Under the pieces are notes generated by a model, which was not told the DNA's origin, ran no database searches, and saw only the letters and a list, made by a program, of their open reading frames with translations. This document shows, in pieces, positions 54,932 to 60,454 of a stretch of 64,000 nt of DNA (positions within the stretch are counted from its first letter, which is position 1; the number at the start of each line of letters is the position of its first letter). The stretch spans positions 1 through 64,000 of the forward strand of contig JADYXR010000183.1 in NCBI GenBank assembly GCA_021772095.1, written 5' to 3'. This DNA is from Candidatus Obscuribacter sp. (lineage in GTDB: Bacteria; Cyanobacteriota; Vampirovibrionia; Obscuribacterales; Obscuribacteraceae). Position numbers and translations under genes: made by a program.

Positions 54932-54978
54932 CGAAGACATGATGTGCCTGTTATTTGATCAGGTTCATCATGTCTTCG
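54932..54978. terminator. Long-stem hairpin at the end of the LRR-kinase gene
   Basis: Perfect 13-bp arms CGAAGACATGATG/CATCATGTCTTCG with a 21-base loop. One arm lies within the last codons of the minus-strand kinase and the other just past its stop. It has only weak T-runs, so termination is plausible but not certain. Confidence 0.5.
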
Positions 54979-56855
54979 TTTATGTCCTGTTTGTTTTTTT
55001 GCGAATCTCGCAAGGGCTGGGGCGTTATCTTTGTGTGTTTAAAATTGTCCTGCATGTACCGCAGACCATCGGGTGTGATCAGCGCGCAAAGCTCGAGCTG
55101 TAGCCGCGTCAATCTCTTCTTGGACAATTTTTCAAAATACGGGATCGACTGATCCGTCAGCGGATTGCTTTGCAGGTCTAACGCTTCGAGCGATTCCATA
55201 TTTGATAGAACCTTGATCTCATCGTCTGTGATGCCAACTCCGGCGGCGCGAAGATTTCGCAGCTGGGTTAACTTCGGCAGCTGCTGAAAACATTTCCTGC
55301 TTACCCCTGTCGAACTTATACTGAGCAATTGCAAATTTGGAAATGAATTGATTGCGTATACAACTCCGCGGTCGGTCACATTCCCGAGTTCTTTCAAGTC
55401 CAGAAGTGAAAGGTTCAGTTTTGGTGACAGTTGAGTAAGACCGGCATCAGTAATCGCACTGCCTTGAAAATCCAGGAAATAGAGTTTCTTCATCTCATTG
55501 ATGTATGGAATACTCCGATCATCAATATTGGTATTTCGAAGCGTCAATCGCTGTAGCGGAAACTGGGATAGCGTTTTGATTCCTGCGGAGGTGATTTGTT
55601 CATTGCCCACTAAAGTAATGTCACTTATCGGAATTCCGACCAGCTTTGCCAGATCATCGTCGGTTACGGATTTCGTCGCTAACCAACTGGCGGTTCCGCG
55701 ATTCGAACCATTAACTTCAAATTTGTCCAGGATCAAGGCTTCTCGACGATCAATAATCTGCTCTCGGAGTTTGGCATCGGCTTTGGAATTGATATGTGGA
55801 TGTTTCGTACTTAGCCTTTTCTCGTCAGCCACCCTTTGGTTATATAAATAGTACGCCACCGCGGACAGTGCAACAAGAATCAGGCTTACTATAATGAGGC
55901 TGGCCTGAAAACCAGACGATCGGGGTGCCGCATGCGCCGTCTGCGCGGCGTTCTCGTCAGATGCGACAATCTGGCTGGCACTGTCGGGGGCATCCAACAA
56001 AGCCTTCTTAAAATCTGACATATTTGCAAAACGATCTTCAGGATCCGATGCGAGGGCTTTGCTGATTACACCATTCAATTCTTCTCGAAGCGCGTGATCA
56101 AAACTTGTTCCTTCCAACGCTGGTATCGCAGGTGGTTCTGTTTCCAATCTCAGTTTTATTATTTCTAAAGCAGTTTTGCCTTCGAACGGCAGCTGTCCTG
56201 CCACCATCTTCAAAATCACCAGTGCCAGTGAATAAACATCGGCTCGCTCGTCGGAATCCTCTCCGCGCACCTGCTCCGGACTCATATAAAGAACGCTGCC
56301 GACCGGCTGACCTGGTCGCGTCAATCTCCAATCCGTTTCAGCCATACTGGCGATCCTGGCCAGACCAAAGTCGAGAACTTTTGCAACATTGTCTGTTTCG
56401 ATCATGATGTTGCCGGGCTTCAAGTCCCGATGAATAACTTCGTTGGTGTGCGCGTGTTCTAACGCATCGCACAATTGAACAGCGATGTTGATCGCATCCA
56501 AAATCGGCATCGCGCCGTTGGTTTCTAAAAGACTCTGGAGACTCGAACCTTTTACCTGTTCCATTACCAGGTAAGGTTCGCCAGCTTCTGTATAACCGAA
56601 ATCGAGAACCTGCACGACATGAGGATTGTTGAGTTTACTCACAGCCTTTGCTTCTTGCTGGAAGCGCATCACTGCAAGCGCGTTTTCGCTATTGCGGGGC
56701 AACAACTTGATTGCAACCGGACGATTGAGACGATTGTCGTGCGCGCCGAGCACTCGCCCCATGCCGCCTTTGCCGATCAGCTCGAAGTTGGAGTATCTAA
56801 ACCTCAACTCTGGAGGCGCGAGATCGTCAGAGCTATCATCGTCTTCTAAACTCAT
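54951..56855 (-). CDS. Ser/Thr kinase with transmembrane helix and leucine-rich repeats
   Basis: 634 residues. Cytoplasmic Hanks-type kinase domain (about 20-290): GKGGMGRVLG loop, Lys50, HRDLKPGN at 142-149, DFGLAR at 162-167, MSPEQVRG, DVYSLALVILKMV. One membrane helix at about 316-338. Outside lie leucine-rich repeats from about 385 to 600 (LTLVGN, LQRLTLRNTNIDD, LDFQGSAITDAGL, LQLLSISSTGV, LEALDLQSNPLTD), with the spacing of cysteine-containing or bacterial LRRs. A receptor-kinase arrangement: an extracytoplasmic LRR sensor controlling an internal kinase. The 3' end lies in a hairpin. Confidence 0.93.
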   Translation of the reverse strand: MSLEDDDSSDDLAPPELRFRYSNFELIGKGGMGRVLGAHDNRLNRPVAIKLLPRNSENALAVMRFQQEAKAVSKLNNPHVVQVLDFGYTEAGEPYLVMEQVKGSSLQSLLETNGAMPILDAINIAVQLCDALEHAHTNEVIHRDLKPGNIMIETDNVAKVLDFGLARIASMAETDWRLTRPGQPVGSVLYMSPEQVRGEDSDERADVYSLALVILKMVAGQLPFEGKTALEIIKLRLETEPPAIPALEGTSFDHALREELNGVISKALASDPEDRFANMSDFKKALLDAPDSASQIVASDENAAQTAHAAPRSSGFQASLIIVSLILVALSAVAYYLYNQRVADEKRLSTKHPHINSKADAKLREQIIDRREALILDKFEVNGSNRGTASWLATKSVTDDDLAKLVGIPISDITLVGNEQITSAGIKTLSQFPLQRLTLRNTNIDDRSIPYINEMKKLYFLDFQGSAITDAGLTQLSPKLNLSLLDLKELGNVTDRGVVYAINSFPNLQLLSISSTGVSRKCFQQLPKLTQLRNLRAAGVGITDDEIKVLSNMESLEALDLQSNPLTDQSIPYFEKLSKKRLTRLQLELCALITPDGLRYMQDNFKHTKITPQPLRDSQKNKQDINEDMMNLIK

Positions 56856-56945: not shown

Positions 56946-57377
56946 TTAAGGTTTTACTGTTGTAGATTCGCTTTTGCTTTCTGATGCAGAGCCATCAGCA
57001 TTAACTGTCGCTGCGGCATTGCTCTTCTTTGAGACGGAACCTGCAGCATTGACTTCGTGGCTCTCGGATGACTTGCCGACGCTTACGCTACCGTCAGCAT
57101 TAGCTCTGGATTTTTTCTTGGTCTTGCTGACTTTAGCGCCGCCTGCTCCAGCTTTCGCTTCGTATTCTACTTCGCGTGTTCCATCGATATCCGATTTGGT
57201 CTTCTTGACTGCGGTGGAAGATCCTGCCGCATTTGATTTCTTTTTGACAGAAGTCGAAGAAGTGCCTAACGGAGTGGAAGTTTCAACAGTAGCCGTTGAT
57301 GATTCTTCAGCGTTTGCAACAGATTGACTGAGGCAGAGTGCGGCACAAAGAAACGCACCTCTAATAATTTTGGACAT
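56946..57377 (-). CDS. Small exported low-complexity protein
   Basis: 143 residues from the ATG at 57377, which has a strong AAGGAG 6 bases upstream; the frame is open to 57446. A signal peptide (IRGAFLCAALCLSQSVANA) precedes a mature chain of Ser, Thr, Ala, Lys and Gly only, without Cys or hydrophobic core. A motif of the form (A/V)NADGS(V/A)S recurs (RANADGSVSVGKSSES, HEVNAAGSVSKKSNA, VNADGSASESKSES). It should be disordered, and may be a surface, matrix or cell-envelope linker protein. It has its own terminator downstream. Confidence 0.8.
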   Translation of the reverse strand: MSKIIRGAFLCAALCLSQSVANAEESSTATVETSTPLGTSSTSVKKKSNAAGSSTAVKKTKSDIDGTREVEYEAKAGAGGAKVSKTKKKSRANADGSVSVGKSSESHEVNAAGSVSKKSNAAATVNADGSASESKSESTTVKP

Positions 57378-57829
57378 GTCAAACTCCTTAAGTAGTTCGG
57401 GGAAACGGGAAATTCGGTCTTCCTTGCCGAAATAGCACTTCCGCAATTTTGCAATGGCGCGATCGTTGCCGAACTGCCCGATTTTGCTGCCGGAAAAACG
57501 TGATTTTTTTACGGTGGAGCCCGATATGGTGGGGTCTAGTCCGTATTGTTAAGCTTGCGCAAGAAACGAGCAACGGTTATCAAGTGGCAATTCTGCGGCG
57601 GGGGTATAAATTCCGCGATTTTTTATCTGAAAATAAAGCTTTCTGGACTTTCCACGACTCGAACTGTGAGCTCTCCAATGGTCTCAAAGCGTTCGAAGCT
57701 ATCGAACGGTTTCTATGGTATCAAGCTAGTCGAACGGTCTTAGCGGATTAAGGTATTGCACGGTATCTACAGGTTTATTATCGAACACTCTCCAGAGAAT
57801 GCCCGCGCTGGAATTTCCATACTGTCCAA
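57378..57829. other. Intergenic region between two minus-strand genes
   Basis: About 450 bases. Contains TTTTTTT near 57506. A loose repeat of (A/T)TCGAACGGT occurs at about 57700-57740. No gene seen. Promoter elements for the gene starting at 57377 should lie in 57380-57480. Confidence 0.45.
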
Positions 57830-58636
57830 CTAACCGCCGGATCTTTTTGCTTGCATGCCGCGACGTTTTAGCTCCGTCAAAATTCGATCGCATTGGTCGC
57901 CCTGTATTTCAATGGTGTTGTCTTTAACTGTGCCACCAGTTCCGCACGACTGCTTCAGCTCAGTCGCAAGTTTCTCGAATTCTTCCAAATTCAATTCGAG
58001 ACCAAACACAACCGTGACCTTTTTGCCACCACGTCCCTTGGACTCCAGGCGCACGCGTACTGCTTTTTGCGACTTGCTGCTCCCTGCTGCAGGTTTATCG
58101 ACGGTCGCTGGAAGCGGAACTGGAGCGCGTTTCCCGCCCTTCAAAATCAACCGAATCAGAAGACTTTTAATGTTTTGCAAGAGCGGCTCTAATGGATTCT
58201 CGTCACTGGGAATTTTCCAAACGTCCTTCTCTCCTTTAAAGGTAGGAAACGTTTTTCCAAAGATCTGATCGCAGTCATTCGAATTATTTTTTTGAATCAG
58301 GATGATCATGTTTGCGCTTTGGACGTCATCTGTGGTCACCGAATGTAGTGCCTCTGACAAAACGGCAGAATTTGCGATTCCAATGTTTGTCAACGCGGCG
58401 CTAAACGCGGCAACTTGTTCAGAACTAGCAGAAACTGATTTCGTTCCGTCATTCAAGAATGCAGCGCAAGCGGACCAGTACACTTCAGATTGTCTTGCTT
58501 CGGCGTCGAACAAAACTTGAGCAAGTCGGCCTTCGATTTCGTTGGAAAGAAACAAAATCCGGCTGGGCTCGCCAAGATCAGGCGGACTCGGTGACGCGCC
58601 TTTCGAACGTTTAGATTCACTTCTGTTGTTTTTCAA
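57830..58636 (-). CDS. Pseudo-LMW-phosphatase fused to SUI1/eIF1-like domain
   Basis: 268 residues from a TTG with GGAGG 5 bases upstream. The C-terminus (about 192-268: VRVRLESKGRGGKKVTVVFGLE, EEFEKLATELKQSCGTGG, TIEIQGDQ, ILTELKRRGM) is a clear SUI1/YciH domain, the fold of eIF1, which contacts the ribosome. The N-terminal part (about 25-165) follows the layout of low-molecular-weight tyrosine phosphatases/arsenate reductases: RILFL then SNEIEGR where CX5R is expected, WSACAAF like V-x-SAG, and VWKIPSDENP near the end. The catalytic Cys is Ser31, with Arg37 kept, so it should be inactive as an enzyme. No such fusion is known to me. It is last of three minus-strand genes after a histidine kinase. 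Confidence 0.78.
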   Translation of the reverse strand: MKNNRSESKRSKGASPSPPDLGEPSRILFLSNEIEGRLAQVLFDAEARQSEVYWSACAAFLNDGTKSVSASSEQVAAFSAALTNIGIANSAVLSEALHSVTTDDVQSANMIILIQKNNSNDCDQIFGKTFPTFKGEKDVWKIPSDENPLEPLLQNIKSLLIRLILKGGKRAPVPLPATVDKPAAGSSKSQKAVRVRLESKGRGGKKVTVVFGLELNLEEFEKLATELKQSCGTGGTVKDNTIEIQGDQCDRILTELKRRGMQAKRSGG

Positions 58637-58651
58637 ATCGACCTCCGGCGT

Positions 58652-60454
58652 TCAGGTTTCATTTTGTGGCAGGCGAAACCAAAAAGTGGAACCAGATCCT
58701 GGTGTCGACCTGATACCAATTGTGCCACCATGATGTTCCACCAAATTCTTGCATATTGACAGGCCCAGTCCAGTGCTGCCGGGCATAACGCCGATATCCA
58801 GTTGGGTGAAGTTTTCAAAGATCGCGGCTTGCTGTGCCGGTTCGATGCCCGGACCTTGATCGGAGACAAAAATTTCGACGTCGCCTTTATTCTTCGCGGC
58901 GGCAATCGTAATGATTCCGTTCGGAGGTGAAAACTTAATCGCATTGCCAAGCAGGTTAACGAGCACCTGAATTATTCGGTCACCGTCGGCGACTATATCG
59001 ATGTCGGTTCCGACCTCTTCGAACGTTATGTTCTTCACTTCAGCCAGTGATTTAATCGCCTGCACCGAGTTAGTGACAATAACATCGAGACTGGTATTTT
59101 GAATTTTTAATTCTATCTTTCCACTTTGCAATTTTTCGAGGTCAAGGAAGTCATTGATCAGACGCACCATCCGTGATGCGCTCCCTTCCATCTTATCGAG
59201 TTCATGCTCGACCTTCTCTTCAATCCGGCCCTTGGCTCCGGCTTTTAGCAAATCAATGCCAACTAGAATAGAGGTAAGCGGAGAACGCAGGTCGTGCGAT
59301 ACCATAGCCACCACGTCTCTGCGTATTTGATCGGCTAATTTTCGTTCTGTTATATCGTGCGAAACACAAAACAATTGGTTTTCGCTGTCCGACCACTGCA
59401 ACGTCCAGAGAGTATCCACCGGTCTCTGACTTTTCGACCGGATGCGAATCTCAATTGCCACATTCTTTTTAGTTTCAATGGCCTCTCGAAACGTTTTAGT
59501 AATCTCGTCAGCGTTTTCAAAAATGATATCGACCACCCGACGGCCATACAAATCGAATTCGGAATAGCCCCATTGCGTCTCAGCGGCGGGGTTGACGGCG
59601 GAGAATTTTAGCCCGGAGTCGACACTACAAATGACGTCAACTGCGTTTTGAACAATCGCTCGTTCCTTTCGAGCTGCATTAGCCAACTCGACGGCCATCA
59701 TGCGAAAAACTTGATCGAGTTCGGCAATTTCATCACGTCCTCCGGGTGGAGGCAGAAGTTCTTGTTGTGCAGTCAATCGCTGGGTGTTGTCCATCAATAC
59801 ATTCAGACGTTTTGCTGTTCCAGCATTGAAATATGCCACCAGTCCCCCTGCTATCAGGGCGAACGCTACAAGACCGCCGTAGAGCCAGCCTTCGACGAGA
59901 GTACGGAAGTAGGTTTCAGTTTCCGGACCGCCTCTAACTAGACTACGTTGTCGTTTTACAACGTCCTCAAAAAGATTAGAGAGTTGTACAAAACTTTTTT
60001 GAATTCGTTCGAATTGATTGCGCCCACCAGTGTCTCGATCTATTTCATCGAGCATTACTTCCAAATGTTTTACTTCGCCTTGTACGACATTACTGATTTT
60101 ATCGACGACTGCCGACGCTTCCGGATCGGTTTTGACAAGGTCTTTAAGCAGCCCAATCTGAGTGAATACCTTCGCTTTGGATTCGCTGAACTGACTGCCA
60201 AACATTGGATTTTTGCTTAAACTATAGCCGGCAACCGCAGTTCCCATCTCAACAAATTGTCTCTGCAGATTTTCGGTTTCCAAAATAAGGTTTCGAGAGC
60301 GCTCCATATTGCGCGCTTCTACCTCGAGTTGAAGCAAAAGATAGCCGAGGGTGCCAACGAAAAACAGCGCGAACAAAAACGGCACCGTAACTATTATCAA
60401 GCCCTGGTGCCAAAGCTTTGGCTTAAGCCATGCGCGTTTTCGTTGCTGCCCCAA
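58652..60454 (-). CDS. Membrane sensor histidine kinase with PAS domain
   Basis: 600 residues from a TTG directly after the upstream stop, with GGGGAG about 10 bases upstream. TM1 at 19-42, a helical CHASE3-like periplasmic domain (about 45-185), TM2 at 193-213, HAMP, a PAS domain (about 270-380: VDVICSVDSGLKFSAVNPAAE, SHDITERK), HisKA with VSHDLRSPLTS as phosphoacceptor His, and HATPase_c with LLGNAIKFSPPNG, DQGPGIE and GSTGLGLSICKNLVEHHGG. No response regulator lies beside it; the next gene is the SUI1 fusion 15 bases away. Confidence 0.95.
   Translation of the reverse strand: MGQQRKRAWLKPKLWHQGLIIVTVPFLFALFFVGTLGYLLLQLEVEARNMERSRNLILETENLQRQFVEMGTAVAGYSLSKNPMFGSQFSESKAKVFTQIGLLKDLVKTDPEASAVVDKISNVVQGEVKHLEVMLDEIDRDTGGRNQFERIQKSFVQLSNLFEDVVKRQRSLVRGGPETETYFRTLVEGWLYGGLVAFALIAGGLVAYFNAGTAKRLNVLMDNTQRLTAQQELLPPPGGRDEIAELDQVFRMMAVELANAARKERAIVQNAVDVICSVDSGLKFSAVNPAAETQWGYSEFDLYGRRVVDIIFENADEITKTFREAIETKKNVAIEIRIRSKSQRPVDTLWTLQWSDSENQLFCVSHDITERKLADQIRRDVVAMVSHDLRSPLTSILVGIDLLKAGAKGRIEEKVEHELDKMEGSASRMVRLINDFLDLEKLQSGKIELKIQNTSLDVIVTNSVQAIKSLAEVKNITFEEVGTDIDIVADGDRIIQVLVNLLGNAIKFSPPNGIITIAAAKNKGDVEIFVSDQGPGIEPAQQAAIFENFTQLDIGVMPGSTGLGLSICKNLVEHHGGTIGIRSTPGSGSTFWFRLPQNET

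Follow-up and report, generated by a model that had tools for sequence, protein, structure and literature searches.

SUI1 proteins of bacteria are usually very small, and little is understood about them. In eIF1 and YciH, the SUI1 domain attaches to the small ribosomal subunit close to the P site and influences the fidelity of initiation. The DNA studied here, a window of 64,000 nucleotides from Candidatus Obscuribacter sp., encodes a SUI1 protein with a large additional part at its N-terminus, which raises the question of what this part is and what it may do for the factor. The original prediction described the protein as a dead low-molecular-weight (LMW) phosphatase fold fused to SUI1. Its phosphate-binding loop was thought to have Ser for the catalytic Cys while keeping the Arg, so that the protein could bind a phosphorylated ligand and act on translation initiation. 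The host family, Obscuribacterales, consists of large-genome, non-photosynthetic relatives of cyanobacteria. A literature search found no paper on a fusion of the LMW-phosphatase fold with SUI1.

A YciH-type SUI1 domain with a new N-terminus

The features of the locus are collected in Table 1. Besides the fusion (57830-58636, minus strand), no other SUI1 protein was found in the genome of 8.1 Mb. The SUI1 assignment is confirmed by Pfam (PF01253), which matches residues 190-261 with 67.2 bits against a gathering score of 25.5 (E 1.8e-18). The best NCBIfam models for this part are YciH-type SUI1 families, down to 1.8e-28, and a profile built from the fusion family retrieves E. coli YciH (PDB 1d1r) with an E-value of 2e-29. 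Residues 190-268 match the whole SUI1 domain of YciH and bacterial SUI1 proteins (1d1r; NCBIfam TIGR01158 and NF005297), up to the C-terminal GG. The fusion protein does not reach the YciH equivalog cut-offs (best models 96-99 bits versus 111.65 and 145), a shortfall that goes with its replaced N-terminus.

YciH and cyanobacterial SUI1 proteins have only a short N-terminal tail, their ORFs being mostly of ~110-140 amino acids, whereas the fusion carries a folded front domain of 170 residues. Eukaryotic DENR and eIF2D also have a C-terminal SUI1 domain preceded by an N-terminal extension. However, their N-terminal domains are unrelated to that of the fusion, and the DRP1 model matches the SUI1 part only (2.3e-4). 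The factor family is known, but this domain architecture is new to it.

Table 1 Features of the fusion gene and its upstream neighbour, in window coordinates
Feature	Position	Strand	Details and evidence
Coding sequence of the fusion protein	57830..58636	(-)	268 aa, TTG start, stop 57830-57832; ORF; full-length homologues in 16 other family genomes
Shine-Dalgarno GGAGGT	58641..58646	(-)	4 nt ahead of the TTG start; read directly from the sequence
N-terminal domain with predicted LMW-phosphatase fold, residues 25-171, very probably catalytically dead	58124..58564	(-)	AlphaFold2, Foldseek, Pfam LMWPc in homologues, tree
Putative remnant of the phosphate-binding loop, S-N-E-I-E-G-R, residues 31-37	58526..58546	(-)	Alignments with YwlE and CTGNYYRSRFAE relatives; spacing table; model
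Fusion-specific motif LILKGGKRAP, residues 163-172, end of the N-domain	58121..58150	(-)	Homologue alignment; missing from stand-alone relatives
Variable linker, residues 172-189	58070..58123	(-)	Low model confidence; 17% mean pairwise identity
SUI1 domain, YciH type, residues 190-268	57833..58069	(-)	Pfam, NCBIfam, YciH 1d1r profile match
Histidine kinase, CHASE3-PAS-HisKA-HATPase	58652..60454	(-)	Ends 15 nt upstream of the fusion gene; Pfam, neighbourhood

The N-terminal domain is predicted to fold as an LMW phosphatase

With the window protein alone, a single-sequence search gave no convincing Pfam match in the N-domain. An AlphaFold2 model of the fusion, calculated from a set of 16 homologues, has a mean pLDDT of 86.6; residues 25-165 are mostly above 90 and residues 178-188 below 50. 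The elements of the modelled N-domain follow the order strand-helix-strand-helices-strand-helix-strand-helix. Search for structural similarities in the PDB using Foldseek revealed a fold common with LMW protein-tyrosine/arginine phosphatases and ArsC (PF01451), namely TT1001 (2cwd, 3.1e-5), YwlE (4kk4, 3.9e-5), SP-PTP (5got, 6.1e-5) and ArsC (1lk0, 2.1e-4), in addition to SUI1 structures. The Foldseek probability to LMW-PTP structures is 1.00. Pfam LMWPc (cut-off 23.2 bits) is borderline in two homologues (L028, 23.3 bits; L030, 22.6 bits) and reaches 15.0 bits in L031; all three matches involve the first positions of the model. In the PDB, the family profile gives weak matches to LMW-PTP chains (4egs, 0.011; 1d1q, 0.26). 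In the model, residues 25-165 fold as an LMW phosphatase, in agreement with the layout originally proposed for the N-terminal half.

The N-domain derives from the neighbourhood of an intact subfamily

The family profile also matches stand-alone proteins of ~150 amino acids in related genomes. Their loop is intact and reads CTGNYYRSRFAE in L102, L103 and L106, and CKGNYFRSRFAE in L107. The CTGNYYRSRFAE subfamily (L102, L103, L106 and L108) contains the nearest relatives of the N-domain, both by BLAST and in the tree, and has the W and FN..A positions in common with it. These proteins keep the Cys, the Arg and the Asp region but have neither SUI1 nor the GGKRxP motif. The window N-domain is 28% identical to L102 over 120 amino acids (E 1e-6, in a very small search space). 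An L103 query retrieves the N-domain of the G019 fusion with 36% identity and an E-value of 3e-14.

A maximum likelihood tree was calculated with 16 fused N-domains, 5 stand-alone proteins and, from the same family, 15 LMW-PTPs of the canonical type and 16 ArsC-type proteins; several of its branches are long and were flagged by the program. The 16 fused N-domains form a single clade (support 99/91), which groups with the five stand-alone proteins (100/99), apart from canonical LMW-PTPs and ArsC-type proteins. The earliest-branching and least changed fusion is that of G019 (L026). A sequence ancestry shared with LMW phosphatases is supported by the L103-G019 match, the LMWPc match in L028 and the tree. 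As sources of the N-domain, ArsC and canonical LMW-PTPs obtain similar profile scores, but the tree sets the fusions with the CTGNYYRSRFAE subfamily. Long glycosyltransferase-like proteins in G142 and G046 were also matched by the family profile, too weakly to be retained (E 0.002-0.008).

The intact subfamily (L102, L103, L106, L107 and L108) has itself a patchy distribution. Within the family, 4 of 50 genomes have it as a stand-alone protein, and it is patchy in cyanobacteria too. NCBIfam has no name for it, and its Pfam LMWPc score is modest.

Distribution and conservation of the fusion

For the scan of all genomes, the patterns came from the window protein alone; the family profile was run on family, class and phylum-sample genomes. 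The fusion is not confined to the window. SUI1 is present in 17 of the 50 Obscuribacterales genomes and all 17 carry the long fused form, one of them cut by a contig end. These genomes span 8 of 24 genera and the remaining genomes have no SUI1. Two thirds of the family genomes lack the fusion protein, which is therefore not generally essential. Among relatives, those with a name are MAGs and carry the label Candidatus Melainabacteria or Obscuribacterales. Across 240 class genomes, the family profile detected no stand-alone SUI1. Cyanobacterial SUI1 proteins of the phylum sample cover only the C-terminal part of this profile. Likewise, 41 plasmid records match by their SUI1 part only, none covering more than 80% of the protein. 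The patchiness of SUI1 within the family implies repeated loss or transfer.

Mean pairwise identity is 32% in the N-domain, 17% in the linker and 61% in SUI1, and the middle part of the N-domain is shortened in many homologues. The near-invariant N-domain residues (F29, F43, A47, W54, W140, L163, I164, G167, G168 and R170) are mostly hydrophobic or belong to the LILxGGKRxP motif. There, L163, I164, G167 and G168 are invariant and R170 is found in 15 of 16 sequences; the motif is missing from stand-alone relatives. We also considered GGKRxP as an inherited SUI1 N-tail. The short KGGWQEF start of picocyanobacterial proteins aligns at this place, but the likeness extends little beyond two glycines. 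Only one pair has a dS that is unsaturated in the N-domain as well as in SUI1; its dN/dS values are 0.23 and 0.13, respectively, indicating that the N-domain is maintained in that pair.

The fast divergence of the N-domain and its shortened middle part also fit weak constraint. The phosphatase fold could then be the stable leftover of an accidental fusion, carried by a protein that acts simply as YciH. The low and uneven conservation of the N-domain speaks for such a passenger, but the folded domain is kept in every fused SUI1 protein, across at least 8 genera. The dN/dS value above and the invariant motif, which only the fusion has, also argue against it, and we consider this explanation possible but rather unlikely.

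Genomic neighbourhood

Because only 15 nt separate them, the upstream histidine kinase gene is probably co-transcribed with the fusion gene. This arrangement could make the fusion protein the output of a two-component system, controlled by the kinase. In L042, too, the gene immediately upstream encodes a histidine kinase; in L051 and L052 such a kinase is encoded two genes downstream. However, a query with the L042 kinase gives 84 matching stretches in the genome of the window, among which the neighbour of the fusion ranks fourth, and the flanking genes differ in most relatives. A conserved operon was rejected on the ground of this ranking, despite the adjacency in L042, and control by the kinase appears improbable.

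The 84 kinase-like matches, obtained from one search with a related kinase, are an unusually large set for one genome. Two other genes of the locus can be mentioned. Two genomes of one genus encode, close to the fusion gene, a small Ser/Lys-rich protein that is probably exported (window 56946-57446 and L039 9319-9744; 54% identical). At 54951-56855, the window appears, on reading its sequence, to encode a serine/threonine kinase that has a membrane segment and whose C-terminal part resembles leucine-rich repeats.

The catalytic residues are lost

LMW-PTPs and ArsC have a catalytic Cys, an Arg and a general acid, whereas the N-domain has lost all three. The loop of the intact relatives reads C-T-G-N-Y-Y-R-S-R-F-A-E. 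HHalign and MAFFT place Ser31 at the position of the catalytic Cys, as had been noted; pairwise BLAST shifts the gap and pairs Ser31 with the Gly of CTGN. The first loop position in 16 homologues is Ser (11 cases), Ala (3), Leu (1) or Gly (1), and Cys is absent from this position in all 17 fusions. In the 17th case, that of G017, the loop reads LILSTESALAAFVE, with no Cys and no Arg. The G017 gene is split by a contig break (C618, L101; C718, L048); the two pieces overlap and jointly give the full N-domain.

The claim of a kept loop Arg did not hold. In all three alignments R37 lies two residues past the catalytic Arg. The R-L-A of fusions aligns on P-M-A or R-F-A (HMMER alignment of L030 with YwlE, HHalign, BLAST and MAFFT), R37 being paired with the P of CxxxxxRSPMAE or with the second R of CTGNYYRSRFAE. 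The position of the catalytic Arg is occupied by Glu in the window protein and L030, and by Asp in L026. From the first loop position to the R37 column, the distance is 6 in the window protein only and 7-9 in the other homologues (n=16); this column is Arg in 8 of 16. The S-X5-R spacing, found in the window protein only, is a coincidence due to a loop two residues shorter. Moreover, helix 1 begins at residue 35 in the window model, so that R37 is inside this helix. The general-acid Asp is not conserved among fusions (W-K-I-P-S-D-E in the window protein versus W-x-V-x-D in intact relatives). Finally, the homologue alignment has no conserved polar residue at the former active site, where loop length and residues vary. 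Judged from these alignments, the N-domain is very probably catalytically dead.

The original prediction therefore stands for the dead LMW-phosphatase fold fused to SUI1, which agrees with fold, profile, phylogeny and family-wide occurrence, and fails for the loop with a retained Arg that would bind a phosphorylated ligand. A Ser-for-Cys loop with this Arg would have coupled a phosphorylated protein or metabolite to initiation. The fold binds phosphate in relatives, the window protein does read S-X5-R, and enzymes of this kind are known to become substrate traps when their Cys is mutated to Ser. However, R37 is not the catalytic Arg, its spacing is unique to the window protein, homologues can begin the loop with Ala, Leu or Gly and often have no Arg, and no polar pocket is conserved. 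Such a trap is very unlikely.

Discussion

Most likely, the front domain has been added to a translation factor in a non-enzymatic role and does not read phosphate. On balance, we favour a pseudophosphatase module that has kept its fold, has lost its catalysis and probably works as a steric arm or tether of a YciH-type 30S factor. The domain lacks a conserved polar pocket and is followed by a flexible linker; a contact module or steric arm is the simplest reading.

We propose that a YciH-type SUI1 factor gained an N-terminus of LMW-phosphatase fold related to the CTGNYYRSRFAE subfamily, apparently once in this Obscuribacterales lineage. The gained domain would then have lost the Cys, the Arg and the general acid while the fold stayed. 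By analogy with eIF1 and YciH, the SUI1 domain would bind close to the P site of the small ribosomal subunit, which makes an action on the ribosome plausible. The pseudophosphatase domain, attached through the basic GGKR junction and the flexible linker, may be a non-catalytic tether or steric arm, directed to a protein partner or to the 30S surface. The conserved basic junction is a candidate contact. Such a tether or arm might tune the site or the timing of the factor's action in initiation.

It is far less probable that the pseudophosphatase has a non-canonical site by which it still senses a regulatory protein or a ligand that is phosphorylated or anionic, and so switches the eIF1-like factor on or off the 30S; if true, this would be a signal-gated initiation factor in bacteria.

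Every SUI1 protein found in this lineage bears the added domain, very probably dead, while intact relatives persist in sister genomes and, once, in the same genome as the fusion (G001). With the role that we favour, the family would clearly illustrate how an enzyme fold has been put to non-catalytic use within a translation factor.
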